DNA of 42,107 bases from Terriglobia bacterium (lineage in GTDB: Bacteria; Acidobacteriota; Terriglobia; Bryobacterales; Bryobacteraceae). The stretch spans positions 1 through 42,107 of the forward strand of contig JAIQFI010000008.1 of the NCBI GenBank assembly GCA_020073345.1, written 5' to 3'. A program made the position numbers and the translations under genes. This document shows positions 14,205 to 42,107 of this stretch, one piece after another. The notes under the pieces were generated by a model. The model was not told where the DNA came from and did no database searches. It worked only from the letters and a program-made list of their open reading frames with translations. Numbering within the stretch: position 1 is the first letter of the stretch; every line of letters starts with the position of its first letter.

Positions 14205-14207
14205 TCC

Positions 14208-14509: not shown

Positions 14510-14525
14510 GTTCTCAGGAAAGGCC

Positions 14526-15416
14526 ATGCTCTCCACACTTCCGTCATCTGGCGCAAAACAGTTTGAAGTCGGCCAGCCGGATTCCGCCAATCCGCGTTTC
14601 AAAACCCTGCGGTCGGTCCACGAACGGTATGCGGCCAGCGTGGCCACGGCCCTGTCGGCGTTTCTACGCTCGGACTTCCAGGTGAGCTTCAAGGATCTCT
14701 CGGTTCAGACCAGTGGCGGCTTTCGCGCTGCCCTGCCGAGTCCCACCTGCCTCATGGTCTTCCGGCTTCACCCGCGTGACGAGCGCATGTATCTGCACCT
14801 GGACTGCGCCACCGTGTTTGGGTTACTCGAACTCCTGTTGGGTGGCAAGTGTGGTCCCGACCCAGTCGCGCCGCGAAACCTGACCGAGATCGAATGGAGC
14901 CTGCTGGAGGAAATTGCCCGGGTGATGGTGCGTCCCTTGGGCGAGGCCTGGCAGCTCTTTGCGACCGTCGAGTTCGAGGTGGAATCCCTGGTCAGCGAAC
15001 CTGCCTTGTTGGCGCCGAACGATCCGAATCAGCCTTCCAGCCAGCCGATGATCCGCCTGGCCTTCGATCTGGGATGCGGGGAACACTCGGGCGCGCTGGA
15101 GATAGCGGTGGCACAGTCGTTCTTCGACACTGTGGGAACCGCTCCGGACCAGAAAGGGACGCCCGATGCCCTGGAGCCTGATGCGCGTCAGAAATTAGCG
15201 CTGTTGGACGAAGCCGGCGTGTCTCTGGAAGTCCGTCTGGAAGGACCTCTCCTGCCGGTCGGTGACCTCATGAGCCTAAAGACGGGGCAAGTAATCAAGC
15301 TGAACCATCCTTTGGATCAGCCCTTGCGCGGAGTGCTCAACGGAGCGCTCTCCATGGAGGGCACTGTGGTCGGCTCCGGGAAAAAGCGGGCGTTCCAGAT
15401 CGCGGCCTTGCCCTAA
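14526..15416 (+). CDS. fliM: FliM-family flagellar switch protein
   Basis: C-ring switch component. It has 296 residues. The middle domain (~40-205) contains LRSVHERYAASVATALSAFLRSDFQVSF and TVFGLLELLLGG.., followed by NLTEIEWSLLEEIARVM. The C-terminal SpoA domain (~215-290) has SLEVRLEGPLLPVGDLMSLKTGQVIKLNHPLDQPL. It is shorter than usual (~330 aa), and the N-terminus lacks the LSQ-EIDALL peptide that binds CheY-P in typical FliM. AGGAAAGG precedes ATG 14526. It is separated from the fliN gene by 5.6 kb, and an orphan gene converges on its 3' end. Confidence 0.87.
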   Translation: MLSTLPSSGAKQFEVGQPDSANPRFKTLRSVHERYAASVATALSAFLRSDFQVSFKDLSVQTSGGFRAALPSPTCLMVFRLHPRDERMYLHLDCATVFGLLELLLGGKCGPDPVAPRNLTEIEWSLLEEIARVMVRPLGEAWQLFATVEFEVESLVSEPALLAPNDPNQPSSQPMIRLAFDLGCGEHSGALEIAVAQSFFDTVGTAPDQKGTPDALEPDARQKLALLDEAGVSLEVRLEGPLLPVGDLMSLKTGQVIKLNHPLDQPLRGVLNGALSMEGTVVGSGKKRAFQIAALP

Positions 15417-15438
15417 GAGTGACGGGAAGTCTCCCGAA

Positions 15439-15753
15439 TCAAATCCGGTTTTCACGCCACAGAGATTGAACTCCGGCCAGGTGCTGCAGCAGCTGAACGG
15501 AAACCTGCAGATCCTCGGCGGGCGACTCGCCTCCGCACCGCAGCCAGTTGCGCATCGCGTCCGCGATGGTGGCCAGCATTTCCATTCGCTCCCGCTCGTC
15601 TTCTCCCGTCAGAGGCCAGCCGGCCGGCTCAGCGGAGATCCAGGCGAGCGTCAGAGTCTCTCGCAGACGGCGCAAGTCGCCACTGTTCCAGGCGGAAAGA
15701 AGGAGCCGCGCACACTGTTCTGAAGCGGGAGCCGATTTCGTTTTCATCATCAT
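15439..15753 (-). CDS. Orphan 104-aa protein in the flagellar cluster
   Basis: I do not recognise this protein. It is predicted almost all-helical, with no signal peptide or membrane segment: ASEQCARLLLSAWNSGDLRRLRETL, then ERERMEMLATIADAMRNWL, then EDLQVSVQLLQHLAGV. Three ATG codons in a row (15745-15753) leave the exact start open by two residues, and no strong Shine-Dalgarno is visible. It lies between fliM and fliC on the opposite strand. A sigma-28-like promoter identical in both boxes to the flbD one lies 18 bp upstream, which argues that it is a real late flagellar gene, possibly a chaperone or regulator. Confidence 0.6.
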   Translation of the reverse strand: MMMKTKSAPASEQCARLLLSAWNSGDLRRLRETLTLAWISAEPAGWPLTGEDERERMEMLATIADAMRNWLRCGGESPAEDLQVSVQLLQHLAGVQSLWRENRI

Positions 15754-15771
15754 GCGGATGGACTGCAGGAC

Positions 15772-15798
15772 ATATCGATCGGCCCGGTGCGCAGTTTA
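15772..15798 (-). promoter_or_regulatory. Sigma-28 (FliA) promoter for the 104-aa orphan gene
   Basis: On the minus strand TAAA (15795-15798), exactly 15 bp, then ATCGATAT (15772-15779). Both boxes and the spacing are the same as in the flbD-motAB element at 14208-14234. The start codon is about 18 bp downstream of the -10. An overlapping GCCGAT adds to the resemblance. Confidence 0.6.
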
Positions 15799-15869
15799 AA
15801 ATTTTTTGGGACCCTCGGGCGCCAAGTACCAAAAGTGGCCTGTTTGCACTTTCTTAACAAAAAAAGTCT

Positions 15870-15897
15870 GAAATACTTCGCGGGCTTTGCGAGATGA
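15870..15897 (+). promoter_or_regulatory. Weak sigma-28-like element upstream of fliC
   Basis: GAAA (15870-15873), 16 bp, CGAGATGA (15890-15897). Only the AAA and GAT cores match the consensus. fliC is normally sigma-28-dependent and no better candidate was found in 15754-15975, so this is listed at low confidence. Confidence 0.22.
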
Positions 15898-15929
15898 ATA
15901 GCACGCTCCTGGAAGTTGGACCGAGCGGA

Positions 15930-15946
15930 TTCGGCAGGATGCCGAA
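15930..15946 (+). other. Hairpin in the fliC leader
   Basis: TTCGGCA-GGA-TGCCGAA is a perfect 7-bp stem with a 3-nt loop, 30 nt before the fliC ATG and just upstream of AAAGGA. There is no U-tract. A 5' hairpin of this kind can stabilise an abundant mRNA; that role is inferred. Confidence 0.5.
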
Positions 15947-15975
15947 GATTTCAATTAGAAAAAGGACGTGACGCA

Positions 15976-16815
15976 ATGTCATATTCGTTTCAGACAAACG
16001 TGACCTCTTTGGTAGCCCAGCAGAATCTTCGGGTGAACAGCGACTTTCAAAGCCGAACCATCACTCGCTTGACCTCCGGTTATCGAATTAATTCTTCGGC
16101 GGATGACGCCGCGGGCCTGGCAGTTGCCAATAAGTTCCGCAGCGACGTGGCCGAGTTGCAACAGGGCGTTCGGAACGCCAACGACGGTGTCAGCATTCTC
16201 CAGATCGTCGATGGCGGCCTCAACAACGTTTCGAACATTCTGGACCGGCTCAAGACGCTGGCCACGGAATCGGCCTCGGATACGTTCAGCGGCGACCGCG
16301 CCACTCTGGATACCGAGTTTCAGGGCTTACTGGCTGAAATCGACCGCCAGGCAGCCAACATCGGGTTGGCCAGCGGCGGCGGCACGGGCGGCCGGTTCAA
16401 CGTGAGCCTGGATGTGTACATCGGCGGCGGCGACACGCAGGCGCACGCCAAGGTGACCATCGACCTGAGCGGCGCTGGGAATCAGGTGGATACCTCCGGT
16501 CTGGGAATCAGTACCGACGCGGTCGATACCAAGGCCCACGCGCTCACCGCTCTTACCGACATTACTACGGCCATCTCCAACCTCGGCTTGGTCCAGGGAG
16601 CTGTCGGAACCGGGGAAAACGAGCTAAACTACGCCGTCCAATTGGCGCAATCGCAGATTTCCAGCTTCTCTGCGGCGCAGTCGTCGATTCGCGACGCGGA
16701 CGTCGCTACCGAAGCGGCCAACTTGACCAAGGCGCAGATCCTGGAGCAATCCTCCGTGGCCGCCCTGGCACAGGCCAACGCCGCGCCGCAAGCGCTGTTG
16801 AAACTGCTCCAATAA
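15976..16815 (+). CDS. fliC: FliC, flagellin (compact)
   Basis: Filament protein. It has 279 residues from ATG 15976, which has AAAGGA 10 bp upstream; the frame is open further up to 15916, but the flagellin N-terminus is at 15976. The N-terminal D0/D1 domain includes NVTSLVAQQNLRVNSDFQSRTITRLTSGYRINSSADDAAGLAVANKFRSDV. The C-terminal D1/D0 has SSIRDADVATEAANLTKAQILEQSSVAALAQANAAPQALLKLL. The central part is short and Gly-rich (GLASGGGTGG, then VYIGGGD), so the D2/D3 surface domains are almost absent. No cysteine was seen. A strong terminator follows. The export chaperone gene fliS is 13.6 kb away. Confidence 0.96.
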   Translation: MSYSFQTNVTSLVAQQNLRVNSDFQSRTITRLTSGYRINSSADDAAGLAVANKFRSDVAELQQGVRNANDGVSILQIVDGGLNNVSNILDRLKTLATESASDTFSGDRATLDTEFQGLLAEIDRQAANIGLASGGGTGGRFNVSLDVYIGGGDTQAHAKVTIDLSGAGNQVDTSGLGISTDAVDTKAHALTALTDITTAISNLGLVQGAVGTGENELNYAVQLAQSQISSFSAAQSSIRDADVATEAANLTKAQILEQSSVAALAQANAAPQALLKLLQ

Positions 16816-16843
16816 AGCGGTTAGTCCTAATGCTCTGAACAAT

Positions 16844-16884
16844 CTGGGCCGATTCTCTACCGAGAACGGCCCAGTTTTGTATTT
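16844..16884 (+). terminator. Rho-independent terminator after fliC
   Basis: CTGGGCCG (16844-16851) pairs with CGGCCCAG (16867-16874), extended by TTCTC/GAGAA around a TACC loop with one bulged A, followed by TTTTGTATTT. The stem is long and GC-rich with a U-tract, placed 29 bp after the fliC stop. Confidence 0.88.
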
Positions 16885-16944
16885 AAGGGCACGAAGCGTC
16901 CGCAGCGCTCCGTTTTGCGCGGAAGAAGCGGAAGAAGAAGATAG

Positions 16945-18282
16945 ATGAGCGACAACTCCACGATTTTCACGGGCAGTAGCCGATACTCCAGCGACCTGCA
17001 GCAGGTGCTCAATCGCTCCATCGCGATCGCCTCCCTGCCGCTGGACCAGCTAAACAATCAGCTAACCACTTTGCAGAATCGCTCCGCGGCTTTAGATGCC
17101 CTGGACGGGAAGTTCACCGCGCTTCTGACGGCTTTGCAAGGGGTTTCCTCCGCGACAGTCTCCAGCTCCGCTCAAGTGTCCGACACCAGCGTGCTTTCCG
17201 CCTTGAGCGATTCCACGGCTATGCCGGGCACCTACGCCATTCACGTGGTGAGCCCCGGGGCGCCTACAAGTGCGCTCAGCAACAGCAGCCTGCCGGCGGT
17301 TCAGGATCCTTCCACACAATCAATCTCGGCGGCCGGTTCGTTCACTCTGACGGTGGCGGGCACTCCTGTCACGATTACTCCATCCAGCAATACCCTCAGC
17401 GCTCTGGCGGAAGCCATCAACTCGTCCGGCGCGAATGTCACGGCGACCATCATCAACTTGGGCTCGCCCTCTGCGCCGGATTACAAACTATCGCTGCAGA
17501 GCACCAAGCTAGGCAACATCGCCATTCAGCTCAATGACGGGTCCCAGGATCTGCTCAGCACTCTGTCGACCGGATCGCAAGCCCAATACCAGGTCAATGG
17601 GCAGCCCGCCACCCCCATTTCCTCGGACTCCAGCACGGTGACGATCGCCCCCGGCCTGACCGCGGATCTGCTCGCGGCCGGCGATGCGGACGTGGTGGTC
17701 ACGCGCAGCGGCTCCGCTCAATCGAACGCCCTATCCTCGTTTGTGGGCGCCTACAACGCGGCTATGGACCAACTCAGCCAGAACCGTGGCCAAGGCGGAG
17801 GTCCCCTTACGGGAGATCCGCTCATCAACACCCTTTCGCAATCGCTCCGGGATCTGACTGGATTCACCGGCGGCGCCGGCTCGGTTCAGAATCTGACCGA
17901 TCTGGGTCTCACCTTCGATAAAACCGGGCATCTGTCCTTCGACCAAACCGTGTTCGACAATGTCCTGGCGGCTCATCCCAGCGATGTTAGAGCCTTCCTC
18001 GGTTCGCCCTCCACCGGCGGGTTCTTGAAGGCTGCGACCGACACCCTCAACACTCTGGAAGACCCCAGTACCGGCACCATCGAAACCACACGGGCTAGCG
18101 CACAGACGGCGATCACCAACCAGAACCAGAAGATCGCCGACGAGCAGGATCGCATCGACATTCTTCAAAACAACCTGATCGCCCGCATGTCCGCCGCGGA
18201 CGCGCTGATCGCTTCCCTGGAGCAGCAAGTCAACTACTTCACCAGCCTTTTTGCGAGCATGAATGGAACCAAAACTAACTGA
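16945..18282 (+). CDS. fliD: FliD, filament cap protein
   Basis: Cap protein at the filament tip that promotes flagellin folding. It has 445 residues. The N-terminal helix region has SSRYSSDLQQVLNRSIAIASLPLDQLNNQLTTLQNRSAALDALDGKF. Hydrophobic beta segments fill the middle. The C-terminal helical region has NQKIADEQDRIDILQNNLIARMSAADALIASLEQQVNYFTSLFASM. ATG 16945 follows a purine-rich GAAGAAGAAG tract. The end overlaps the fliT-like gene by 20 bp. No promoter was found between the fliC terminator and fliD. Confidence 0.94.
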   Translation: MSDNSTIFTGSSRYSSDLQQVLNRSIAIASLPLDQLNNQLTTLQNRSAALDALDGKFTALLTALQGVSSATVSSSAQVSDTSVLSALSDSTAMPGTYAIHVVSPGAPTSALSNSSLPAVQDPSTQSISAAGSFTLTVAGTPVTITPSSNTLSALAEAINSSGANVTATIINLGSPSAPDYKLSLQSTKLGNIAIQLNDGSQDLLSTLSTGSQAQYQVNGQPATPISSDSSTVTIAPGLTADLLAAGDADVVVTRSGSAQSNALSSFVGAYNAAMDQLSQNRGQGGGPLTGDPLINTLSQSLRDLTGFTGGAGSVQNLTDLGLTFDKTGHLSFDQTVFDNVLAAHPSDVRAFLGSPSTGGFLKAATDTLNTLEDPSTGTIETTRASAQTAITNQNQKIADEQDRIDILQNNLIARMSAADALIASLEQQVNYFTSLFASMNGTKTN

Positions 18283-18556
18283 TCGCCTCCACGCCGCGAT
18301 TCAGACCGGCGCGTGGAGCACAGCGCAGGAGCTGCTCGCGTCGTTTCGTGTGGAAGTGGAAGCCGCCTGGCGAGCCGCCGCCACCGAGCAGGAACGCCGT
18401 GAGATTGCCGAGAACGTGACCGGCTTCTTGCAGTGGGCGCGTGCGATGACCATAACCAGCCGCGAGCATGCGCGCGGGAATCTGAACCGTCTGAACCGCC
18501 GGCTGGCGTACGCCGGGCCGCATCCTTCCAATCCCCATCGGGGCCTGGACGCGTAA
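18263..18556 (+). CDS. fliT: FliT-like small protein after fliD
   Basis: 97-residue, mostly helical, soluble protein that starts inside the 3' end of fliD (20-bp overlap). FliT is a FliD chaperone of similar size normally encoded right after fliD, but sequence conservation is too low for me to assign it from motifs. The visible segments are TDRLHAAIQTGAWSTAQELLASFRVEVEAAW and EQERREIAENVTGFLQWARAMTI. The assignment rests on position, size and helical character. Confidence 0.6.
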   Translation: MEPKLTDRLHAAIQTGAWSTAQELLASFRVEVEAAWRAAATEQERREIAENVTGFLQWARAMTITSREHARGNLNRLNRRLAYAGPHPSNPHRGLDA

Positions 18557-18562
18557 CCAAAG

Positions 18563-18578
18563 CGTCAGGGATCTGACG
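18563..18578 (+). promoter_or_regulatory. Dyad upstream of the flgB sigma-54 promoter (candidate enhancer site)
   Basis: CGTCA-GGGATC-TGACG is a 16-bp inverted repeat centred near 18570.5, about 96 bp before the predicted transcription start at 18667. That is the usual distance for a sigma-54 activator site. A wider AGCGTC (18561-18566) / GACGCT (18595-18600) pair surrounds it. Confidence 0.4.
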
Positions 18579-18640
18579 GGATCGTCTGATTTGCGACGCT
18601 CCGCCTAAATCATTCCGCTTGGAATCAATGGCTTACACCT

Positions 18641-18656
18641 TGGCACGGGAACTGCT
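18641..18656 (+). promoter_or_regulatory. Sigma-54 promoter for the flgB-fliJ operon
   Basis: TGGCACGGGAACTGCT: the -24 TGGCACG and -12 CTGCT boxes have the required 10 bp between GG (18642-18643) and GC (18654-18655). Consensus is TGGCACG-N4-TTGCW, one mismatch. Predicted +1 is 18667, only 4 nt before the flgB GTG. The window encodes a matching activator at 2620. Confidence 0.75.
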
Positions 18657-18670
18657 TTAGGGCAGGCATC

Positions 18671-19030
18671 GTGTTTGAAGCTGTCGCCGGAAATCTCGAA
18701 CGGTATATGAATCTGCTGAGCACCCGGCAGAAGCTGGTAGCGTCCAACATCGCCAATGCCGACACGCCCGGATACCACACGCAAGACATCGATTTCCGCG
18801 CCGAGTTCGCCCAGCAAATGCAGGCGCAGGATTGCGGGGGCTCCCAAACGACCGGCCCTCAAACCATCGAACCGGATGGCCTGCCGGTGAAAGCCGACGG
18901 CAACAACGTCAGCCTGGACCGCGAGTCTCGCATGCTGGCCGAGAACGCGATGCGCTTCCAGGTGGCAGCCAGCCTGGCCCAATCCGAGCTGCACTCCATA
19001 AAAAGCGCCATGGAAGGTACCAACGCATGA
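18671..19030 (+). CDS. flgB: FlgB, proximal rod protein
   Basis: Proximal rod protein. It has 119 residues starting MFEAVAGNLERYMNLLSTRQKLVASNIANADTPGY, the standard FlgB N-terminus with the axial-protein NIANxxTPGY motif. The C-terminal axial helix is RMLAENAMRFQVAASLAQSELHSIKSAM. The GTG start at 18671 fixes the expected N-terminus. AGGGCAGG (18659-18666) would be a good ribosome-binding site, but it lies upstream of the start predicted from the sigma-54 promoter. Its stop overlaps flgC by four bases (ATGA). It heads flgB-flgC-fliE-fliF-fliG-fliH-fliI-fliJ. Confidence 0.95.
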   Translation: MFEAVAGNLERYMNLLSTRQKLVASNIANADTPGYHTQDIDFRAEFAQQMQAQDCGGSQTTGPQTIEPDGLPVKADGNNVSLDRESRMLAENAMRFQVAASLAQSELHSIKSAMEGTNA

Positions 19031-19464
19031 GCCTTTTCTCAGCCCTCTCTGTAAGCGCCTCGGGCATGTCCGCCCAGCGGGCGCGCACCGAACTGCTGGT
19101 GGAAAACCTCGCCAACGCCGACACTACACGGACTCCGGAAGGCGGTCCGTATCGCCGCAAGGATGCCGTGTTCGCATCGGATCCCGCGGTGGGCCAGTTT
19201 TCGGCGCTATTTGAATCCCAGGTCAATCCGTCCAGTTCAGGCGTGCGCGTGGCTCAGGTGGTCACCGATCAGCGCGATCCGGAAATGCGCTATATGCCCG
19301 GTCATCCGGACGCGAACAAGGACGGCTACGTGGCGTATCCCCGCATGAATCCGGCCGAGGACATGGTGGATCTTCTGAGCGCCTCGCGTGGATATCAGGC
19401 CAACGTGGCCGCCATCAGCGCGGTGAAAGACATGATCCAGCATTCGCTTGATTTGTTCAAATAG
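19027..19464 (+). CDS. flgC: FlgC, proximal rod protein
   Basis: Proximal rod protein of 145 residues. It begins SLFSALSVSASGMSAQRARTELLVENLANADTTRTPEGGPYRRK, the FlgC N-terminus. The middle carries the family GVRV..VV.D.RDPEMRYMPGHPDANKDGYVAYP segment, and the C-terminus the DLLSASRGYQANVAAISAVKDMIQHSLDL axial helix. ATG 19027 overlaps the flgB stop. The longer frame open from 18832 only shadows flgB. Confidence 0.96.
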   Translation: MSLFSALSVSASGMSAQRARTELLVENLANADTTRTPEGGPYRRKDAVFASDPAVGQFSALFESQVNPSSSGVRVAQVVTDQRDPEMRYMPGHPDANKDGYVAYPRMNPAEDMVDLLSASRGYQANVAAISAVKDMIQHSLDLFK

Positions 19465-19488
19465 AGAACTTCCCGATAAACGATCGCT

Positions 19489-19794
19489 ATGAACATTTCC
19501 GCCATCCAGCCGTCCAGCATCCGGCCCATTGGAACGCCGATAGAAATCGGCGGTCCGGCTCGCCCGTCCGGGAGCAGCGAATTCGGCAACATCCTGCAAG
19601 GAGCGATCGACCAGGTGGAAGGCGCCAGCAGCAACGCCAAGCAGAGCGTTCAGAATTTTCTGTCGGGCGATGGCGAAGACCTGCATACCACGGTGCTCGC
19701 CGTGCAGCGTGCCAGTCTCGAATTCGACATGCTGATGCAGGTGCGCAATAAAGTTGTTTCCGCTTACCTGGAAGTCATGCGCATGCAGATGTAG
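19489..19794 (+). CDS. fliE: FliE, MS-ring/rod junction protein
   Basis: Export-gate-proximal protein joining the MS ring to the rod. It has 101 residues. The conserved C-terminal half reads DGEDLHTTVLAVQRASLEFDMLMQVRNKVVSAYLEVMRMQM, which ends as FliE proteins normally do. The first ~30 residues are Pro/Ser-rich and variable. It follows flgC by 24 bp and precedes fliF by 27 bp. Confidence 0.94.
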   Translation: MNISAIQPSSIRPIGTPIEIGGPARPSGSSEFGNILQGAIDQVEGASSNAKQSVQNFLSGDGEDLHTTVLAVQRASLEFDMLMQVRNKVVSAYLEVMRMQM

Positions 19795-19821
19795 CAGCGC
19801 GTTGACGGACCTATTACTCCC

Positions 19822-21492
19822 ATGGACCAAGTCAAACGAATCGTAGGAACCCTCTCAGGCCGTCAGTTGACGACCATCCTCCTGGTGGCCGCGCTGGTAG
19901 CGGGAGGAATATACGGGCTGACCCAGTGGCAGCGCGAAGCTGGATTCCGCCCGCTATACACCACCGCCCTGGCGCCGGAAGATGCCGCTCTCGTGGTGCA
20001 ACACCTGAAGGAAAGCAGTGTTCCCTATCGTCTGTCGGCGAACGGCACGATTGTTTCCGTTCCCGAAGAAAGAGTCGCCGAGCTGCGTCTGGATATGGCG
20101 GCCGCCGGCCTGCCCAAAAGCGGGCGGATCGGCTTCGAGATCTTCGACAAGACTAATCTCGGCATGACCGATTTCGCCGAGCACGTGAATTACCGCCGCG
20201 CGCTGGAGGGCGAGCTGGAACGCTCGGTCATGGCGCTGACCGAAGTCGAGCAGGCCCGGGTTCACATTTCGTTTCCCCAGGAATCGGTGTTTCAGGAAGC
20301 CCGCCAACCCGCCAAAGCCAGTGTGCTGGTGCGTCTCCGCGGCGGATCGCAACTGCCCGAGACCGCCATCCCGGCCATCACGCACCTGATCTCGAGCGCA
20401 GTGGAAGGCCTGGCTCCAGACGCCGTTTCGGTGCTGGATATGCGCGGCAATCTTCTGAATCGCGCCAAGCAGGTGAGTGCTGATTCCGGTTCTAGTTCGG
20501 GAACATCCGAGGCAGCGCTGGAGTACCGGCACAGCGTGGAACAGGATCTAACCGCCAAGCTGGATGCCACGCTCGAGCCTCTGGTGGGCGCGGGCAGATT
20601 CCGCGCCGCGGTCTCCGCCGACACCGACCTCACCAGCGGCGAGCAAAGCGAGGAACACTTCGATCCGACCCAGTCCGTCATGGTGAATTCCCAAAAGACG
20701 GAAGATGTTTCGTCGCCGGCGCGCACCGCCGGCGGAATTCCAGGAACAGCTTCGAATCTCCCGGATCCCGCGCCTGCCCCCGTGACCGTGGGGGGCGGCT
20801 CTTCCCGCAAGACGGAAAGCGTCAATTACCAATCCAGCCGGACGGTGAAACGCACCGTGCTTCCGCAGGGCGGCATCAAGCGGCTTTCGGTCTCCGTCTT
20901 GATCGACCAGGAAGTGCATTTCGAAGGCTCGGGCGCGCAGGCCAAGCGGGTTCTGACCGCCCCGCCACCGGAACGCATCAAAGTGATACACGATCTGGCC
21001 GCCGCCGCCGTAGGATTGAACACCGAGCGCGGCGACCAGTTGATCGTGGAAAGCCTCCCGTTTGAATCGACCGTCAACCTGGAGCCGCCGGGACCAGCGC
21101 CCGCGGCGCCTGCCCCGCCGCTCACGCCCCTCGAGCAGCTCAAAAAGAATCCGAAAATGCTCTACGGGGCGGCCGGCGGCGCGGCTGTGCTTCTCGCTGG
21201 CCTGTTCTTCCTGGTGTTCAAGATGATCAAGAAGTCACCGCCTCCGCCGGCGCAGGTGCGCCAGCCAGAATCTCTGCCTCAGGCGGGCGCCGAGCCGGCA
21301 GCCGCGCCAAGAGTAGCGGGGGCCGACAGCTGGGCGCCTTCGGCACTCTCCTCGATGGGCGCATCGCCGCTGCCCGCGCTGGCTCCGGCCCGGATCGAAG
21401 TGCTGACCAATCAGATTCGCGAGACCGCGCAGAAAGACGGAGAAGTCTGCGCCGGCGTGTTGCGCGGATGGCTCCGCGAGGAGCAAGCCTGA
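19822..21492 (+). CDS. fliF: FliF, MS-ring protein
   Basis: Inner-membrane MS-ring protein, the base on which the motor is built. It has 556 residues. Membrane helix 1 is near the N-terminus (LTTILLVAALVAGGIYGL, ~17-35). The periplasmic ring-building domains have the motif LRLDMAAAGLPKSGRIGFEIFDKTNLGMTDFAEHVNYRRALEGELERSV. Membrane helix 2 is MLYGAAGGAAVLLAGLFFLVFKMI (~445-470), followed by a cytoplasmic tail that binds FliG. It is followed by fliG after 3 bp. Confidence 0.96.
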   Translation: MDQVKRIVGTLSGRQLTTILLVAALVAGGIYGLTQWQREAGFRPLYTTALAPEDAALVVQHLKESSVPYRLSANGTIVSVPEERVAELRLDMAAAGLPKSGRIGFEIFDKTNLGMTDFAEHVNYRRALEGELERSVMALTEVEQARVHISFPQESVFQEARQPAKASVLVRLRGGSQLPETAIPAITHLISSAVEGLAPDAVSVLDMRGNLLNRAKQVSADSGSSSGTSEAALEYRHSVEQDLTAKLDATLEPLVGAGRFRAAVSADTDLTSGEQSEEHFDPTQSVMVNSQKTEDVSSPARTAGGIPGTASNLPDPAPAPVTVGGGSSRKTESVNYQSSRTVKRTVLPQGGIKRLSVSVLIDQEVHFEGSGAQAKRVLTAPPPERIKVIHDLAAAAVGLNTERGDQLIVESLPFESTVNLEPPGPAPAAPAPPLTPLEQLKKNPKMLYGAAGGAAVLLAGLFFLVFKMIKKSPPPPAQVRQPESLPQAGAEPAAAPRVAGADSWAPSALSSMGASPLPALAPARIEVLTNQIRETAQKDGEVCAGVLRGWLREEQA

Positions 21493-29949: not shown

Positions 29950-30348
29950 TTAACGTTTCGGAGCCGGTTCGATCTTCGCCCCGAGGTTGATCCAGGCGCG
30001 GATCAAAGCCAACTGCTCCTCGGTCAGCGTACTCGCCGGCGGCATCCGCTTTGCCGTCGTGTCCGTCAAGCGCGTGTAGAGCAAGCTGCGCTGAGCCTTA
30101 CCGGGAATCACCGCCGGGCCGGACGCCCCGCCCTGCAACACGTTCTCCGGCGCGTCCACCCTCAGTCCGCCGGCCGCCATCGCCGCCTGGTGGCAGGATA
30201 CACAGTTCGCCGTCAGAATCGGCTCGATGTCGCGATAGTAGTTGACCGCTTCGGCCTTAGGCTTCCTGGGAGGCGCTTTTTTACCAGACTCTTGCGCGTT
30301 CACAATCGCCATTCCACTCAGCAGCAGTAGGAGGATTCTCTTGGGCAT
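29950..30348 (-). CDS. Small secreted c-type cytochrome-like protein
   Basis: 132 residues from ATG 30348, which has GAGAGG upstream; the longer frame to 30456 lacks support. Signal peptide MPKRILLLLLSGMAIVNAQ, a Lys/Pro-rich linker, then one haem-attachment motif CVSCH (in ILTANCVSCHQAAMAAGGLRVD) and a downstream Met in MPPA as possible sixth ligand. This matches the single-haem planctomycete/acidobacterial cytochrome c domain often attached to larger proteins. The end, TEEQLALIRAWINLGAKI, is typical of that domain. Redox partner unknown. It lies upstream of htrA on the same strand with a 153-bp gap. Confidence 0.82.
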   Translation of the reverse strand: MPKRILLLLLSGMAIVNAQESGKKAPPRKPKAEAVNYYRDIEPILTANCVSCHQAAMAAGGLRVDAPENVLQGGASGPAVIPGKAQRSLLYTRLTDTTAKRMPPASTLTEEQLALIRAWINLGAKIEPAPKR

Positions 30349-30576
30349 TCGGTCCCTCTCGATTATCCCATGTGCAGTCGCCGGGCCATTCTCTGCAAAC
30401 ACGGAAATCGATGATAGCTTTACGTGGGATGCGTCAACTCGCCCGCGGCCACCCACTCTGCCTGCGCGATTTCACACAGGCAGGAGCCACTCCCCAAGCG
30501 TGCTCGTTCATTTTCAAGCGTTCGGTTTTGGATCGAAAAGTGCTGATTATCCACCGACGATCGCGAGGTAAAGCAT

Positions 30577-31761
30577 ATGGGAAAAATCGTGGCAGCCATG
30601 GCCACCATGCACGCTCCGCAACTTTTCACGCGGCCTCCCGAGGAGGATCCGAAACAGCTCGACGCGGGAATTGCAGCCATGCGGAAGCTGGGCGAGATTC
30701 TGGATGAGACCAAGCCTGACGCCCTGGTGATCTTCGCCAGTGACCATCTGGAGACGTTTTTCCTGCAATCCGTGCCGACCTTCGCGGTGATTGCTGGAGA
30801 GCGCGCAAAGACTGCCTTCGCCGGCCGAACCTGGAATCCGGCGATTCACCAGGGGTTGGCCGAGGACCTTCTGGAAGGTCTGGTCCGCCGCGATTTCGAC
30901 ATGGCGTACTCGCAGGACGCGGTGCTGGGACACTCCTTCGCCGCGCCCTTCGAATGGATCCTGGGTACGCGGGACATTCCCGTGGTGCCGATTTTCGTGA
31001 ACACGTATCTGCCACCCTTGCCACGGCCTCAGCGCTGTGCCGCTTTGGGCCGGGCGGTCGCGGAAATCGTGGCTGCCAAGCCGGAGCGCGTCGCGCTTCT
31101 CGCCAGCGGCGGAATGTCCCACTACCCTGGTACTGCAAAGTACTATCAACCCGCGTACGATTTCGACCGGTGGTGCATCCGCGAGCTGGAGAACAGCCAT
31201 ACGGGTTCGTTCCTGAATCTGACGCCGGAGCAGTTGGACGAGGTAGGCAATACCGAGATGCTGCCCTGGGCCATCGTGCTGGGCGCGGCCGGCGCACAGC
31301 ATATGGAACTGTTGTCGTACCAGGAAACCTCGCATCATGGCCATGCGGTGGCGCGCTTCCTGCCCGGCGAAAAGCGGAATGCGGAACCGTCGCAGCCCTA
31401 TCAGTTCCAGAGCCATCCGTTTCATTACTACGACCACCCTCCGATCTCGGCTTACCGGTTGAACAAGCTGCTGTATGAGTCGCGCCATAAACCGGCGCTG
31501 CGACAACGAATGTTCCGCGACCTGGATGCCGTATGCGCCGAGTACGGCCTGGGAATGGCGGAGGCCAGCGCGATGCGGGCGGTCTTCGAGTTTCGGCACC
31601 TCGATGGAGACCGCCCCGCGCTGGACGCGGAGCCTGCTGTAGGCGTGGGCGCCCATCCGGTGGGTGCGTTGATGGCGGTCCACGTTCTGCAGCAGGAGAA
31701 GCGGGCCATGCGCAAGCCCGCGTTGGTCTCGCACGACGTCGCGCTAGCGGTTACGCACTGA
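30577..31761 (+). CDS. LigB-LigA fused class III extradiol dioxygenase
   Basis: Fe(II)-dependent ring-cleavage dioxygenase of 394 residues. The N-terminal LigB-type domain (1 to ~285) retains the likely iron ligands His12, His57 (ASDHLE) and Glu244 (QHMELL), and the catalytic His182 (GGMSHYPG). The C-terminal ~90 residues (RLNKLLYESRHKPALRQRMFRDLDAVCAEYGLGMAEASAM) resemble the LigA small subunit. This domain order is that of fused gallate dioxygenases, so a gallate/protocatechuate-like substrate is plausible but unproven. GAGG lies before ATG 30577. It stands alone, with no visible catabolic neighbours, and its 3' end overlaps the convergent kinase gene by 11 bp. Confidence 0.82.
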   Translation: MGKIVAAMATMHAPQLFTRPPEEDPKQLDAGIAAMRKLGEILDETKPDALVIFASDHLETFFLQSVPTFAVIAGERAKTAFAGRTWNPAIHQGLAEDLLEGLVRRDFDMAYSQDAVLGHSFAAPFEWILGTRDIPVVPIFVNTYLPPLPRPQRCAALGRAVAEIVAAKPERVALLASGGMSHYPGTAKYYQPAYDFDRWCIRELENSHTGSFLNLTPEQLDEVGNTEMLPWAIVLGAAGAQHMELLSYQETSHHGHAVARFLPGEKRNAEPSQPYQFQSHPFHYYDHPPISAYRLNKLLYESRHKPALRQRMFRDLDAVCAEYGLGMAEASAMRAVFEFRHLDGDRPALDAEPAVGVGAHPVGALMAVHVLQQEKRAMRKPALVSHDVALAVTH

Positions 31762-34335: not shown

Positions 34336-36606
<2,271 letters not shown>

Positions 36607-36653: not shown

Positions 36654-36682
36654 TTGACTTCGTATGTGTTTGAATGTACGAT
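36654..36682 (+). promoter_or_regulatory. Sigma-70-like promoter for the secreted array
   Basis: TTGACT (36654-36659), 17 bp, TACGAT (36677-36682): close to TTGACA-N17-TATAAT. ACGAT (36678-36682) and ATCGT (36693-36697) form an inverted repeat over the -10 and start region, a possible operator. The start of array gene A is downstream at 36736. Confidence 0.7.
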
Positions 36683-36735: not shown

Positions 36736-37578
36736 GTGCAAATCCAGTTGCGGAATCGGTTGGGAACTTGTTTGCTGGCTGCAATGGCGGGAGTGGCGCT
36801 TCTTTCGCTGGCAGTAGTACCGACCCCGGCGCAGGCTCCGGCCTACAAAGCCCCCAAGACCAAGGACGGAAAGCCCAATCTGAACGGCATCTGGCAGGCG
36901 ATGAATGAGGCCAATTGGGACATCCGGCCGCACGCTGCTTCTCAGGGTCCCGTATACGCGCTCGGCGCCGCCTATTCGGCGCCCGCCGGACTGGGCGTGG
37001 TCGAAGGCAACGAGATCCCCTATAAGCCCGAAGCGGCCGCCAAGCAGAAGCAAAACTTCACCGACCGTTTGAAGCTGGATCCGGAGATCAAGTGCTACAT
37101 GGGTGGCGTTCCGCGGTCCACGTACATGCCGTATCCGTTTCAGATTGTCCAAGGGACCGGCACTGTCATGATCGTTTACGAATATGCCGGCGCCGTGCGG
37201 GTTATTAATATGGGTGCGCCGACCAAGGCCCCGGCCGATAGCTGGATGGGTTGGTCGAATGGTAAATGGGATGGGGAATCACTGGTGGTGGATGTCACCA
37301 GCCTCAACGATTCGACCTGGTTCGACCGCGCCGGGAACTGGCACAGCGATGCGCTGCACGTGATCGAGCGCTATACCGCCATCGGGCCGGACGCGCTACA
37401 GTATGAGGCCACCATTGACGATCCCAAAGTATTCACGCGCCAATGGAAGATGAGCATGCCGCTCTACCGCCGCCTGGAAAAGAACGCGCAGTTGTTGGAA
37501 TATAAGTGTGTGGAGTTCGCCGAAGAGGTCCTGTACGGACATCTTCGAAAGCAGCCTTTAAAAGGAGACCTTAAATGA
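36736..37578 (+). CDS. Array gene A: secreted protein, divergent member of the PDG-x-PDLQGVW family
   Basis: 280 residues from GTG 36736 (GAGGAG 9 bp upstream); the longer frame from 36664 would start inside the promoter. Signal peptide to about residue 34 (CLLAAMAGVALLSLAVVPTPAQA). Family marks are weaker than in B-E: KDGKPNLNGIWQ, KCYMGGVPR, FQIVQGTGTVMIVYEY, NGKWDGESLVVDVTSLND and ERY..IG.DALQYEATIDDP.VFTRQWKM. Two cysteines (IKCY, YKCVEF) align with those conserved in B-D. Function unknown. Its stop overlaps the start of gene B (ATGA). Confidence 0.7.
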   Translation: MQIQLRNRLGTCLLAAMAGVALLSLAVVPTPAQAPAYKAPKTKDGKPNLNGIWQAMNEANWDIRPHAASQGPVYALGAAYSAPAGLGVVEGNEIPYKPEAAAKQKQNFTDRLKLDPEIKCYMGGVPRSTYMPYPFQIVQGTGTVMIVYEYAGAVRVINMGAPTKAPADSWMGWSNGKWDGESLVVDVTSLNDSTWFDRAGNWHSDALHVIERYTAIGPDALQYEATIDDPKVFTRQWKMSMPLYRRLEKNAQLLEYKCVEFAEEVLYGHLRKQPLKGDLK

Positions 37579-38603
37579 GACGACACCTTCTCGGTTCACT
37601 GATCGCTCTGGTCGCCGTCGTAGCGTTTGTCGCGCAAGTGAGCGCTCAGTCCCAAGTGGCTGCGAAACCGGCTCCAGCCGCCAAGGCCTGGACCATGCCG
37701 CGAACTCCTGATGGCAAACCGGACCTGCAGGGCGTATATTCGAACGCCACAACCGTTCCCGTGGCGCGGCCCGCGTATCTGGGCGCGAAAGAGTTCTACA
37801 CCGACGAAGCCGATAAGACGGCTTCTGCCGCGCAAGCGCAAGCCGCCGGCGGCCGAGGCGGACGCGGAGGAGCGGCGCGCCCCGCAGCTGCCGCGGACCC
37901 CGAAGGCAACGGGCTCGCCGTGCACTATGACACCAGCCAGTTTGGTCTCGGCGGACCCACTGTCAAGAGAGCCGCAAGCCTGCGGACCTCCATCATTACC
38001 GGGCCCGAAGGCCGAGTGCCGGCCCTGACACCGGAAGCACAGAAGGCCGCCGCGGATCGCCGAGCATTCCAGCAGGAGCACCAGTGGGACAGCGCTCAAA
38101 CCCGCCCGATCGCCGAGCGGTGCATCACGTGGGGATTTGAAGGTCCTCCGATGATGCCGGTGGGCTACAATTCCACGTTGCAGATCGTGCAGGGTCAAGG
38201 TTACGTAGCTATCGTCCAGGAAATGATTCATGACACCCGCGTCATCCCGACCGACGGCCGCCCGCACGGACCGGCGCAGATCAGGCGTTGGATGGGCGAT
38301 TCAGTCGGCCATTGGGACGGCGACACGCTCGTGGTCGAAACCGTCAACTTCGAGCCCCGGACACCCTTCCAGCAAAACCCGTTCAGTGACGTCGCCAAGG
38401 TCACCGAGAGGTTCGCGCGTGTCGATGCTGATACGGTGCAGTATCAATTCACGGTCGACGATCCCAAGACTTGGGTGAAACCCTTCTCGGGCGAGTACAA
38501 TATGGTCCACATCGACGGCAACGTCTATGAGTATGCCTGCCATGAAGGCAACTACGGCATGGCCAACAACCTTAGCGGCGCCCGCGCCACTGAGAAGAAG
38601 TAA
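37575..38603 (+). CDS. Array gene B: secreted PDG-x-PDLQGVW-family protein
   Basis: 342 residues, signal peptide to ~22. The family motif PRTPDGKPDLQGVYSNAT is followed by ERCITWG, NSTLQIVQGQGYVAIVQEMIHDTRVIP, DGRPHGPAQIRRWMGDSVGHWDGDTLVVETVNF, ERFARVDADTVQYQFTVDDPKTW and YEYACHEGNYGM. A low-complexity insertion (GGRGGRGGAARPAAAADPEGN) interrupts the N-terminal part and is not seen in C-E. AAAGGAG at 37560-37566 serves as ribosome-binding site. Function unknown. A DUF6152 gene follows after 20 bp. Confidence 0.72.
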   Translation: MRRHLLGSLIALVAVVAFVAQVSAQSQVAAKPAPAAKAWTMPRTPDGKPDLQGVYSNATTVPVARPAYLGAKEFYTDEADKTASAAQAQAAGGRGGRGGAARPAAAADPEGNGLAVHYDTSQFGLGGPTVKRAASLRTSIITGPEGRVPALTPEAQKAAADRRAFQQEHQWDSAQTRPIAERCITWGFEGPPMMPVGYNSTLQIVQGQGYVAIVQEMIHDTRVIPTDGRPHGPAQIRRWMGDSVGHWDGDTLVVETVNFEPRTPFQQNPFSDVAKVTERFARVDADTVQYQFTVDDPKTWVKPFSGEYNMVHIDGNVYEYACHEGNYGMANNLSGARATEKK

Positions 38604-38623
38604 AGAAGTAAAGGAGCGATCCG

Positions 38624-39037
38624 ATGCGAACGAAACTGGCTCTTGTTATTGCTGGGGCGGGGATGCTCCTCGCTGCGGTGCCCGTGTGGGCGCACCACGC
38701 TTTCGCGGCGGAATTTAACGAGAAGGCGCCGCTCAAACTGCAGGGCGTCGTCACCAAATGGGAACTGGTCAATCCCCATTCCTGGATTCATCTGGATGTG
38801 AAGGGTCCCGACGGCAAGATCACCAAGTGGATGGTGGAAGGCGGCAGCCCCAATTCGCTGTTCCGCAACGGATTCACCAAGGAATCGCTGCCGGAAGGAA
38901 CCGAGATCATCGTCGAAGGCTACCGTGCCAAGGATGGAGCGGATCGCGCGGTGGGCGCCAATCTCACCTACGCCAAGGACGGCAAGCGCCTGTTCATGGG
39001 CGGCTCCGCGCCGGGCGCCAACGGCGACGGCAAGTAA
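38624..39037 (+). CDS. DUF6152 secreted protein 1
   Basis: 137 residues. Signal peptide ~1-23 ending PVWA, so the predicted mature protein begins HHAFAAEF. The DUF6152 pattern follows: LKLQGVVTKWELVNPHSWIHLDVKGPDGK, TKWMVEGGSPNSLFRNGFTKESLPEGTEIIVEGYRAKDG, and GANLTYAKDGKRLFMGGSAPG. Conserved histidines are the N-terminal pair and those in NPHSWIH. AAGGAG precedes ATG 38624. It is closely similar to the second copy at 41043. Function not known to me; an exported, possibly metal-binding protein is one option. Confidence 0.78.
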   Translation: MRTKLALVIAGAGMLLAAVPVWAHHAFAAEFNEKAPLKLQGVVTKWELVNPHSWIHLDVKGPDGKITKWMVEGGSPNSLFRNGFTKESLPEGTEIIVEGYRAKDGADRAVGANLTYAKDGKRLFMGGSAPGANGDGK

Positions 39038-39041
39038 CCCG

Positions 39042-40031
39042 ATGTCCCAGCGAATCGCTGGCGTGAATTTGTGGGCGGCTGCAATCGCAGCCGCCTTTCT
39101 CATTTCAGGAACCGCCGCCGGCCAATCTGCGAAGGTTAAGAGTGCATCAAAGCCCTGGGCCGTTCCCCGCACTCCGGACGGCCAGCCCGATCTTCAAGGC
39201 GTCTGGACCAACGCCACCATCACACCTTTGGAACGGCCTGCCGAGCTAGCCGGCAAGGAGTTCCTGACCGAAGCCGAAGCCCGCGATTTTGAGAAGAGCG
39301 CGTTCGCGCAGATCAACAGCGAACGCCGCGACGGCGGCCCCGAAGTGGACGTCGGCCGGTCTTACAACGAATTCTGGCGCGACCGGGGGACCAAGGTCGT
39401 GGCCAACCGCAGAACCTCGCTCATCACCGATCCGCCCGATGGAAAAATTCCGCCGCTGACCCCGGCTGCGCAGAAAATACAAGCCGACGCGCGTGCATAT
39501 CAGCGTCTCCATCCCGCCGACGGACCCGAAGACCGCAACCTGTGGGAGCGCTGCCTCACCCGCGGTGTTCCCATGATCCCGGGCCCTTACAACAATGATT
39601 TTCAGATTATCCAGGCTCCCGGATACGTGGTCATCTTTCACGAGATGATTCATGAGGCCCGCATCGTTCCTCTGGACGGCCGCCCGCATGTAGAAAAAGA
39701 AATTCGTGAGTGGACCGGAGACCCGCGCGGGCACTGGGAAGGCGACACGCTGGTGGTCGAATCCACCAACTTTTCCGAAAAAAGCAATTTCCGCGGGTCG
39801 AGCGCCGGGTTGAACCTGGTGGAACGCTTTACTCGCACCGGACCGGACACGATCCTCTATCAATTCCGGGTCGATGACCCGTCCACGTTCACCAAACCCT
39901 GGTCGGCGGAGATGCCCATGACCACTTTGGACAGTCCGATCTACGAGTACGCCTGCAACGAAGGCAACTACGCCATGCTGGGGCTGTTGGGTGGCGCTCG
40001 CGCCGACGAAAAGAAGAAGGGGGCGAAATGA
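39042..40031 (+). CDS. Array gene C: secreted PDG-x-PDLQGVW-family protein
   Basis: 329 residues from ATG 39042; the frame is open to 38925 but that overlaps the DUF6152 gene. Signal peptide to ~28. The full family pattern is present: PRTPDGQPDLQGVWTNATITPLERPAELAGKEF, RTSLITDPPDGKIPPLTP, ERCLTRG, NNDFQIIQAPGYVVIFHEMIHEARIVPLDGRPH, WTGDPRGHWEGDTLVVESTNF, ERFTRTGPDTILYQFRVDDPSTFTKPW and YEYACNEGNY. Closest relatives in the window are D and E. The stop overlaps gene D (ATGA). Function unknown. Confidence 0.74.
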   Translation: MSQRIAGVNLWAAAIAAAFLISGTAAGQSAKVKSASKPWAVPRTPDGQPDLQGVWTNATITPLERPAELAGKEFLTEAEARDFEKSAFAQINSERRDGGPEVDVGRSYNEFWRDRGTKVVANRRTSLITDPPDGKIPPLTPAAQKIQADARAYQRLHPADGPEDRNLWERCLTRGVPMIPGPYNNDFQIIQAPGYVVIFHEMIHEARIVPLDGRPHVEKEIREWTGDPRGHWEGDTLVVESTNFSEKSNFRGSSAGLNLVERFTRTGPDTILYQFRVDDPSTFTKPWSAEMPMTTLDSPIYEYACNEGNYAMLGLLGGARADEKKKGAK

Positions 40032-41008
40032 AAACCAGACTTGCCGCGATGATCGCGTCCATGCTGCTCGCCGCCGTGTTTGCCGCCAGCCAGACCGGAC
40101 CTGCGAGGCCCGCGGGCAAGAGCTACGCCCCGCCGCACACGCCCGAAGGGCAACCAGACTTGCAAGGCATCTGGTCCAACGCCGTTCTTACGCCGCTCGA
40201 GCGGCCCGCGGATCTCAAGGACAAAGCGTTCTTCACCAAAGAAGAAGAGGCCGCCTACGTCAAGCGGATGATCGAGCAAGGCAACAAAGACAGCCGCGCC
40301 GGCGCTGGGACAGATGCGGATGTAGCGCGCGCCTACAACGACTTTTGGTGGGACCGGGGAACCGGTATCGTCAAGACTCTCCGCACCTCGCTGATTACCG
40401 ATCCTCCCGACGGCAAGATCCCCGCACTGACGCCGTTAGCCGAGAAGCGCGCCGCTCAAGTGAAGGAAGCCAGACGTCTCCATCCCGCCGATGGCCCCGA
40501 GGATCGTCCCGTGGGAGAGCGCTGCATCCTGTTGAATAGTGCCGGGCCGCCGATGATGCCCAGCGCGTATAACAACAACTACCAGGTGGTCCAGACGGCC
40601 CAAAACTTCGTAATTCTGAATGAAATGGTCCACGACTCGCGCGTCATACCGTTGGACGGCCGCCCGCACGTTCCGCAGAGCATCCGCCTGTGGATGGGAG
40701 ATTCGCGCGGCCATTGGGAAGGCAACACGCTGGTGGTGGACACGACGAATTTCACCAGCCAGGCGCCGTTCCGGGGATCGGGCGAGAACCTGCACCTGAC
40801 CGAGCGGTTCACGCGCATGGATGCAGAAACGCTGCTCTACGAATTCACCGTCGACGACCCCGAGTCATTCACCAGACCCTGGAGCGCGGCCATCCCCAGC
40901 ACCAGGACCACCGGCCCGATTCTCGAGTACGCGTGCAACGAGGGGAATTACGGCATGACGGGACTCCTGTCGGCCGCTCGTTCCGAGGAAAAGAAAAGCC
41001 CAAAGTAG
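40028..41008 (+). CDS. Array gene D: secreted PDG-x-PDLQGVW-family protein
   Basis: 326 residues, signal peptide to about residue 20 (AMIASMLLAAVFAAS). Same ordered motifs as C: TPEGQPDLQGIWSNAVLTPLERPADL, WWDRGTGIVKTLRTSLITDPPDGKIPALTPL, ERCILLNSAGPPMMPSAYNNNYQVVQ, EMVHDSRVIPLDGRPH, WMGDSRGHWEGNTLVVDTTNF and EYACNEGNYGM. ATG 40028 overlaps the gene C stop. AAGGAGAG precedes the next gene, DUF6152 copy 2, after 34 bp. Function unknown. Confidence 0.74.
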   Translation: MKTRLAAMIASMLLAAVFAASQTGPARPAGKSYAPPHTPEGQPDLQGIWSNAVLTPLERPADLKDKAFFTKEEEAAYVKRMIEQGNKDSRAGAGTDADVARAYNDFWWDRGTGIVKTLRTSLITDPPDGKIPALTPLAEKRAAQVKEARRLHPADGPEDRPVGERCILLNSAGPPMMPSAYNNNYQVVQTAQNFVILNEMVHDSRVIPLDGRPHVPQSIRLWMGDSRGHWEGNTLVVDTTNFTSQAPFRGSGENLHLTERFTRMDAETLLYEFTVDDPESFTRPWSAAIPSTRTTGPILEYACNEGNYGMTGLLSAARSEEKKSPK

Positions 41009-41042
41009 TAGGATAGTCTGAAGCGCCAAGGAGAGAAATCTT

Positions 41043-41453
41043 ATGCGTAAGAAACTTGCAGTTCTGTTGGGGATCGCCGGCTTATTGATGGCCGCGGCGC
41101 CGATGTGGGCGCATCACGCTTTTGCCGCGGAATTCGACGCGCAAAAGCCGGTGAAGCTGAAAGGGACCGTCGCCAAGGTCGAGTTCATCAACCCGCACTC
41201 CTGGATTCATATGGATGTGAAGGACGCCGACGGCAAGGTCACGCGCTGGATGGTCGAAGGCGGCAGCCCCAACGCGCTGTTCCGTCGCGGCGTCACCAAG
41301 GACGCCCTGCCCCAGGGAACTGAGATTATGGTCGACGGCTATCAGGCCAAGGACGGGTCAAATCGGGCAAACGGCAGGGACATTACATTCGCCGACGGCA
41401 GGAAGCTGTTCGTGGGCGGATCGAATCCGGACGAACAGCCGAACGCGAAATGA
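41043..41453 (+). CDS. DUF6152 secreted protein 2
   Basis: 136 residues, signal peptide ~1-23 ending PMWA; predicted mature start HHAFAAEF, identical to copy 1. The rest parallels copy 1: LKGTVAKVEFINPHSWIHMDVKDADGK, RWMVEGGSPNALFRRGVTKDALPQGTEIMVDGYQAKDG, and RDITFADGRKLFVGGSNPD. AAGGAGAG lies before ATG 41043. Its stop overlaps the next array gene E by four bases (ATGA), tying it to that transcript. The two copies look like products of duplication of a larger unit. Confidence 0.78.
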   Translation: MRKKLAVLLGIAGLLMAAAPMWAHHAFAAEFDAQKPVKLKGTVAKVEFINPHSWIHMDVKDADGKVTRWMVEGGSPNALFRRGVTKDALPQGTEIMVDGYQAKDGSNRANGRDITFADGRKLFVGGSNPDEQPNAK

Positions 41454-42107
41454 GCAGCAAAGTACTGGCGCTGGCCACGTTGATTGTCGCCAGCACGGTG
41501 TTGGCGCAGACGAAGAACTACACTCCACCGCGAACGCCCGACGGTCAACCCGACCTTCAAGGCGTCTGGACCAACATCACCATCACGCCGCTGGAGCGCC
41601 CCGCCAATCTCGCGGGTAAGGAGTTTTTCACTGCGGCGGAAGCGCGCCAGTATGAGAAAGACACCGTCGAGCGCAACAACGCCGATCGCCGGGACGGCGG
41701 CGCGCAGGCAGATCTCAGCCGTGCGTATAACGACGCGTGGTACGACCGCGGCACCCGAGTGGTCGAGACGCTGCGGACCTCGCTAGTCATCGATCCGCCC
41801 GATGGACATATTCCCCGAATCGCCCAGGGTCAGCAAGCAGCTCTGCCTCCGGGTGGATTTGGCAGGCCTCCGGAAGGTCCGGAAGACCGGGCTCTGACCG
41901 AGCGCTGCATCCTGTGGCCTACCGCCGGGCCGCCGATGATGCCGAGTTTTTACAACAACAACTACCAGATCGTGCAGGCGCCGGGATACGTGACCATCCT
42001 GGTCGAAATGATCCACGACGTCCGGATCATTCCGGTTAGTGGGCCGGTCGGCGCGCGTCCGCACGTGGACGCGAGTGTTCGCCAATGGATGGGCGATCCG
42101 CGCGGAC
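41450..42107 (+). CDS. Array gene E: secreted PDG-x-PDLQGVW-family protein (3'-truncated by window)
   Basis: About 219 residues are visible before the window ends. ATG 41450 overlaps the DUF6152 copy 2 stop. Signal peptide to ~20 (MSSKVLALATLIVASTVLAQ). The family pattern continues: PRTPDGQPDLQGVWTNITITPLERPANLAGKEFF, AYNDAWYDRGTRVVETLRTSLVIDPPDG, ERCILWPTAGPPMMPSFYNNNYQIVQAPGYVTILVEMIHDVRIIP, then a small insertion before RPH, and WMGDPRG at the edge. The conserved Cys in ERC is present. Function unknown. More array genes may lie beyond the window. Confidence 0.72.
   Translation, partial: MSSKVLALATLIVASTVLAQTKNYTPPRTPDGQPDLQGVWTNITITPLERPANLAGKEFFTAAEARQYEKDTVERNNADRRDGGAQADLSRAYNDAWYDRGTRVVETLRTSLVIDPPDGHIPRIAQGQQAALPPGGFGRPPEGPEDRALTERCILWPTAGPPMMPSFYNNNYQIVQAPGYVTILVEMIHDVRIIPVSGPVGARPHVDASVRQWMGDPRG

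Follow-up and report, generated by a model that had tools for sequence, protein, structure and literature searches.

A predicted exported protein family that is linked, sometimes fused and highly amplified with DUF6152, a candidate histidine metal-site protein, in an Acidobacteriota genome

The stretch of DNA analysed here (the window) comprises 42,107 nucleotides of contig JAIQFI010000008.1 (C23 in our numbering) in the Terriglobia assembly GCA_020073345.1, and its last part, positions 36736-42107, is filled by seven plus-strand open-reading frames (ORFs) in the order A, B, DUF6152-1, C, D, DUF6152-2 and E (Table 1). Five of these are related to one another and form a family which we call F, two are DUF6152 proteins, and the order and strand given in a first-pass annotation of the window were borne out. 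The array outruns the window, as on the contig (C23:36736-45227) the A-B-DUF6152-C-D-DUF6152-E arrangement is followed by a second unit of A', F' and DUF6152-3, which ends at C23:45227. A profile match in the whole-genome scan begins at 36736, in agreement with the GTG start of A, and the ATGA overlaps previously described were found at three junctions: A/B at 37575, C/D at 40028 and DUF6152-2/E at 41450. The proposal of a single promoter for A to E is plausible, the site upstream of A being a consensus match, but a second promoter-like site precedes A' beyond the window, and the scanned region holds six such sites against 2.4 expected in shuffled sequence, which is not strong evidence. Between the two units, on the opposite strand, there is a 115-amino-acid ORF that matches no Pfam model (L021:6423-6770, -).

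Table 1 Features of the array in window coordinates.
Feature	Position	Strand	Remarks
Sigma-70-like promoter match upstream of A	36654..36682	+	TTGACT-17-TACGAT; consensus match
A, short-type (S) F protein	36736..37578	+	GTG start; stop overlaps B; Cys pair; export predicted; S clade in tree
B, long-type (L) F protein	37575..38603	+	
DUF6152-1 (PF19649)	38624..39037	+	predicted mature N-terminal HH 38693-38698; NPH histidine 38777-38779
C, long-type F protein	39042..40031	+	
D, long-type F protein	40028..41008	+	modelled; C166 and C303 conserved
DUF6152-2 (PF19649)	41043..41453	+	predicted mature start 41112; HH 41112-41117; NPH histidine 41196-41198
E, long-type F protein	41450..42107	+	cut by window end; stop at contig C23:42406

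Proteins A to E form a predicted exported family without a Pfam model (export is a prediction throughout, made by visual inspection of the N-termini). None of the five matched a Pfam or NCBIfam model above cut-off, seven Pfam models each matched one of 131 F members with none matching more than one, and an F profile searched against PDB sequences returned nothing below E 0.1 (best E 0.13). The suggestion that the array belongs to an undescribed exported system of two families withstands the refuting conditions named with it, as A to E match no characterised family by sequence in these three libraries and the linkage to DUF6152 recurs elsewhere. Identity to D is 56% for C, 54% for the part of E in the window, 46% for B and 33% for A, and a phylogenetic tree splits the family into a short type (S: A and A') and a long type (L: B to E and F'). 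The relatedness of the five ORFs claimed from a shared, ordered motif set thus stands, whilst A, being of the other subtype, is without several of the listed motifs in the form given. In an alignment of 131 rows (152 of 184 family ORFs passed the length filter, the own locus being left out, and gave 130 non-redundant sequences to which P0005 was added) C166 and E259 are conserved in 100% of rows, and R205, D277 and C303 in 99%. The two cysteines first noted as conserved are C166 and C303 of D, and E also carries the second one, beyond the window. G47 and W49 are near-invariant, a GxW motif being a mark of lipocalins, and Q22 lies near the predicted start of most F proteins (90%). Two F domains occur in one chain in L185:2200-3876 (-, 559 amino acids) and L160:5819-7273 (+, 485 amino acids), and F shares an ORF with a GDSL lipase domain in three metagenome-assembled genomes (COS4, L085:819-3620; COS2, L082:4279-6903; COS1, L087:6828-9131), possibly a hint at substrate chemistry.

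Both small proteins of the window (P0003 and P0006) match PF19649, DUF6152, at E 2.8e-31 and 1.4e-33 (107.9 and 115.3 bits, the curated Pfam cut-off being 27 bits). They had been described as near-identical, which does not hold, as they share 62% identity. We found no mention of DUF6152 or PF19649 in the literature searched, and the passage found of a paper on Solibacter paralogues (PMC3174227) has nothing on F or DUF6152.

The array is one of many in its genome (6.23 Mb, 97.5% complete), which contains 73 DUF6152 matches, all above cut-off, and at least 150 listed F places, with 210 F matches at E <= 1e-3; as 150 of 318 candidate places were scored, the F counts are lower bounds. Together the two families account for more than 200 genes in a single 6.2 Mb genome (a few F places share an ORF). 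DUF6152 was absent from 14 control genomes. Of nine genomes reached through named loci, three have Bryobacterales or Bryobacteraceae in their titles and contain 51, 47 and 57 DUF6152, and the remaining six contain between 2 and 12. The genes of the two families lie close together: in the window's genome 48 of the 73 DUF6152 match starts are within 1.5 kb of one of the 150 listed F match starts, against 8.3 expected and a maximum of 19 in 2000 random placements on the same contigs. Across 79 loci (78 from the scan and our own), which were found with a long-type F pattern and over-represent that type, DUF6152 is present in 37, and 53 of 184 F ORFs adjoin a DUF6152 gene on the same strand.

The co-occurrence extends through the phylum. 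Among 199 genomes DUF6152 was detected in 22 and F in 23, with both in 21. Three genomes break the pattern: G171 has DUF6152 without F, and F stands alone in G080 (75% complete) and in G049 (at a borderline E of 7.5e-4). Counted by genus (119 genera) 12 have both families, one has DUF6152 only, one has F only (borderline) and 105 have neither (Fisher 1.8e-14). These scans scored up to 23 and up to 11 candidates per genome (a few rows more), hence presence alone was used. The recurrent association that the first-pass annotation set as a check is thereby upheld. In the class of G199, a genome with a contig titled Gammaproteobacteria, a search for DUF6152 alone found it in six of 274 genomes, five of them with weak matches (E 2e-7 to 2e-10), the sixth being the genome already found by the F scan. 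The record L065 (CALQCC020000009.1) is titled Bordetella parapertussis, yet its F and DUF6152 genes fall among those of Acidobacteriota, and this title looks mistaken.

Fusions supply the strongest evidence from sequence for F and DUF6152 acting as a pair. Three ORFs in the window's genome, of 383, 378 and 427 amino acids, encode a single chain with both DUF6152 and F, and when 40 relatives were searched with the first of these, further matches along both parts were returned. All 20 stretches taken from nine genomes of the same genus proved to be single ORFs with both domains; they were picked for their fused look, so the figure confirms the fusions and says nothing on their frequency. With linkage, co-inheritance and fusion combined, we regard it as well supported that the two families act together.

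The array itself is old. A duplication of a B-DUF6152/C-D-DUF6152/E module had been proposed, however B, C, D and E each group in the tree with the gene at the corresponding place in the locus L052, and A, B and E also group with their counterparts in L061, from which C and D are absent. Similarly, the loci L054, L055 and L065 are laid out as S-L-DUF-L-DUF, and their B-like and E-like genes occupy the matching places. DUF6152-1 falls in a group with support of 100/97 and DUF6152-2 in another with 87/85, in a small tree with many open forks. As orthologues of the array genes occupy corresponding positions in other genomes, the modules predate the split of these lineages, and on the tree we reject a recent duplication (several forks are open and long branches are flagged).

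Structure models suggest a fold for each family. An AlphaFold2 model of F, built for protein D from 131 sequences, reached a mean predicted local distance difference test score (pLDDT) of 89.4 and a predicted template-modelling (TM) score of 0.85, and consists of a helical N-terminal part, strands between residues 184 and 294 and a C-terminal helix. Its best Foldseek matches in the PDB are fatty acid-binding protein (FABP), cellular retinoic acid-binding protein (CRABP) and similar chains, at E 1.3e-3 or above and TM by target of about 0.5; the top match was the intestinal FABP 3akn (E 1.3e-3, TM by target 0.53), with none at E <= 0.001. By this model F is likely, though not proven, to be a calycin-like barrel, probably clamped by one disulfide. 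The model of mature DUF6152-2 (mean pLDDT 83.5) matched SSB, PriB and lysyl-tRNA synthetase chains at E 2.6e-3 or above, which we take to be OB-fold proteins, and DUF6152 is accordingly a predicted OB-fold.

DUF6152 carries three strongly conserved histidines, of which two open its predicted mature form. A His-His pair (HH) stands there in 71 of 72 copies in the window's genome and in 47 of 47 from other genomes, in total 118 of the 119 copies not chosen as fusions. It is directly preceded by alanine in 65 of the 71 own copies and 44 of the 47 others, and at least 69 of the 71 own copies have a hydrophobic run before it; the signal peptide is predicted to be cut immediately before His1-His2. 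The third, H29 of an NPH motif, is histidine in all 128 aligned HH-bearing rows, ahead of P28 and G60 (127), N27 (126) and G69 (125) amongst the tabulated positions that do not define the set (the HH-bearing set is defined by H1 and H2, and one of 139 rows was set aside as its HH was misaligned). Fusion proteins differ, as HH is kept in 11 of the 20 fetched fusions and in two of the three own ones. The ten HH-less proteins are all DUF6152-F fusions and form one group with support of 99/99 in a tree of 23 fusions. Nine of them carry Gln at position 1, as F proteins mostly do near their predicted start, whilst W46, P28 and G18 are kept in all ten, D9 in nine and E49 in eight. H29 is kept in four of the ten, against 128 of 128 in the HH-bearing rows, so its loss is seen only where H1 and H2 are gone. 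The HH-less fusion group (L165:8419-9552, L194-L202) amounts to natural 'dead-site' versions of the protein.

From this pattern in the sequences we consider it likely that the three histidines form a histidine-brace-like metal site on DUF6152. Whatever the fold of a protein, a histidine at its free N-terminus chelates metals, and PMC12537917, whose definition of the histidine brace we use, reports as metal binders exported proteins found by this feature: DUF4198 and DUF6702, in which a mature N-terminal His is frequent, and two anglerase types. Alternatively F and DUF6152 may be exported partners that bind ligands or surfaces without a metal, the conserved histidines forming the contact between the two proteins. 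Fusions and linkage prove only partnership, and the single fusion group that lacks the histidines fits a contact that is needless once both domains are in one chain; against this, 11 fetched and two own fusions retain HH, hence fusion alone does not render it needless, and one would hardly expect a contact patch to contain three histidines so strongly conserved, a pair of which is predicted to stand at a free N-terminus. We regard this alternative as rather unlikely, though it deserves serious consideration.

If the histidines do bind metal, the findings can be joined in a tentative working hypothesis, on which our opinion is nearly balanced. F proteins, of both the S and L types, would be exported calycin-like pockets clamped by a disulfide which bind a small ligand or substrate, and DUF6152 would hold a transition metal through its free N-terminus, with His1, His2 and His29. 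Copper is favoured because known histidine braces usually hold copper (PMC12537917), although nickel is reported for DUF4198. The two proteins would form one complex, either as separate chains or as one polypeptide, in which the metal serves the ligand bound in F, either as a redox centre or for capture of a metal-ligand pair, and rounds of duplication would have fitted this one machine to many different ligands. The pair might oxidise, capture or sense its ligand. The existence of dozens of versions suggests a task that differs by ligand, and the earlier idea of a substrate-diversified binding family fits both the calycin-like barrel and the copy number, though diversification by substrate is presumed rather than observed.

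A different role for the metal would make DUF6152 a chaperone or scavenger, similar to CopC or the anglerases, with F proteins as its clients or carriers and copies that differ in regulation and not in substrate. CopC, DUF4198 and DUF6702 are described as binding metals in carrier or capture roles (PMC12537917, in the passage on these proteins), and a heavy-metal P-type ATPase with YHS and HMBD domains (34336-36606, -) lies divergent from the array. This ATPase is found beside the array in only three closely related loci of 79 (our own, L052 and L061), and we keep the link as a weak one. A simple metal carrier is unlikely because 73 copies would hardly be needed. We think this role improbable. 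More specifically than the working hypothesis, DUF6152-F might be a new class of exported copper-dependent enzyme, with a three-histidine N-terminal site on an OB-fold and a calycin barrel presenting the substrate. Jointly with this, dozens of substrate-specific versions would exist in Bryobacterales-type Acidobacteriota and the HH-less fusions would have reverted to binding only. As a parallel, lytic polysaccharide monooxygenases (LPMOs) have been amplified in fungi. We offer this enzyme as a speculation, and a doubtful one.

Besides the narrow distribution of the ATPase, a number of observations weigh against the metal-dependent partnership. The fold matches of F and DUF6152 both fall short of E 1e-3. 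H1 and H2 are complete in the 128 aligned rows by construction, the fair figure being 118 of 119, and the co-loss of H29 with HH (Fisher 2.4e-8) is not phylogenetically independent, as the HH-less proteins are one group. The linkage is partial when viewed from F: 63 of the 130 listed F on DUF6152-bearing contigs have a DUF6152 within 1.5 kb, and no DUF6152 was seen in 42 of the 79 loci, i.e. more than half. On contig C60 nine F genes of 254-285 amino acids, the last nine genes of L182 (G000:C60:62000-81999), stand in tandem with no DUF6152 among them, thus F can be amplified alone (the gene calls for this run, and for the neighbouring genes, are from a crude caller). Gene order is not fixed either. 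In other genomes S precedes L in 27 of 31 S/L pairs and L precedes DUF6152 in 29 of 36 L/DUF6152 pairs, proportions that are biased, since those loci were found with a long-type F pattern and L is over-represented; the regions of the window's genome show no prevailing order (with D for DUF6152: SL 4, LS 4; LD 9, DL 10; DS 18, SD 16), S and L being told apart in all these counts by the ExxHxxR motif and not by the tree. We therefore dropped S-L-DUF6152 as a general order.

Neighbouring genes raised one further candidate partner. Among the neighbours in other genomes a cluster represented by a pyrroloquinoline quinone (PQQ) dehydrogenase is met most often (14 of 79 loci), and PQQ dehydrogenases are a large expansion in their own right in the window's genome, with 100 profile matches which we reduced by hand to about 66 places (e.g. 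C67:56818-64331, C37, C79). F and DUF6152 could on this basis be accessory to PQQ-dependent periplasmic oxidation, serving quinoprotein dehydrogenases. In the window's genome, however, 2 of the 73 DUF6152 lie within 1.5 kb of a PQQ dehydrogenase, measured between match starts, against 2.9 expected, and there is no clear excess within 3 kb (7 against 5.4). Only when the range is widened to 6 kb does the count weakly exceed expectation (17 against 10.2, a value attained in 36 of 2000 random trials). With no excess over random placement at gene range we rejected the PQQ dehydrogenase as a partner, and an accessory role of this kind, largely refuted at gene-neighbour range, seems to us highly improbable. 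Some kilobases upstream of the array the window also contains a gene for a PSCyt1 (planctomycete-type) cytochrome and a LigB-type dioxygenase gene (29950-31761), and its left half carries flagellar genes with FHIPEP, FlgK and FliF matches (4016-21492).

The genome-wide scale of the two families and the N-terminal histidines of DUF6152 are newly brought out here, beyond the first-pass annotation. F, one of the two partner families, is without a named domain in the libraries searched. If the histidines do bind metal, three histidines define DUF6152 as a metal-site family, and through a single protein of 113 residues a large share of the exported proteins in such genomes could be assigned and tested. 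Should the metal be wrong, a fused and co-inherited exported pair amplified to this extent would still be unexplained.

Comparison with known systems places each family near, and apart from, several others. The F barrel resembles calycins (FABP/CRABP and lipocalins) in its best model match and in the near-invariant G47 and W49, but differs in its helical N-terminal extension, C-terminal helix and conserved Cys pair, and it has neither a PDB sequence relative below E 0.1 nor a Pfam match in common with them. As a very large exported family F also recalls the Bug/TctC binding proteins, of which Betaproteobacteria have very large exported expansions regarded as ligand-diversified, though their fold differs, and among the neighbour clusters scanned none stood out as a dedicated transporter partner of F, a point not tested further. 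CusF is a periplasmic OB-fold copper protein with a His/Met/Met/Trp copper site, and DUF6152 is similar to it as a small exported OB-fold with a suspected metal role; however, the invariant and near-invariant columns of a DUF6152 alignment into which 39 of the 47 other-genome ORFs entered contain no Met, and CusF is not among the 50 Foldseek matches listed. The terms 'histidine brace' and 'OB fold' were not found together in the literature searched, and whilst LPMOs have an immunoglobulin-like fold, DUF6152 is a predicted OB-fold. With the histidine-brace proteins (LPMO, CopC and the CuB site of particulate methane monooxygenase), DUF4198, DUF6702 and the anglerases it shares predicted export, a histidine directly after the predicted cleavage site and a further conserved histidine, and it differs from these proteins in having a histidine also at position 2 and in being linked or fused to a beta-barrel partner.

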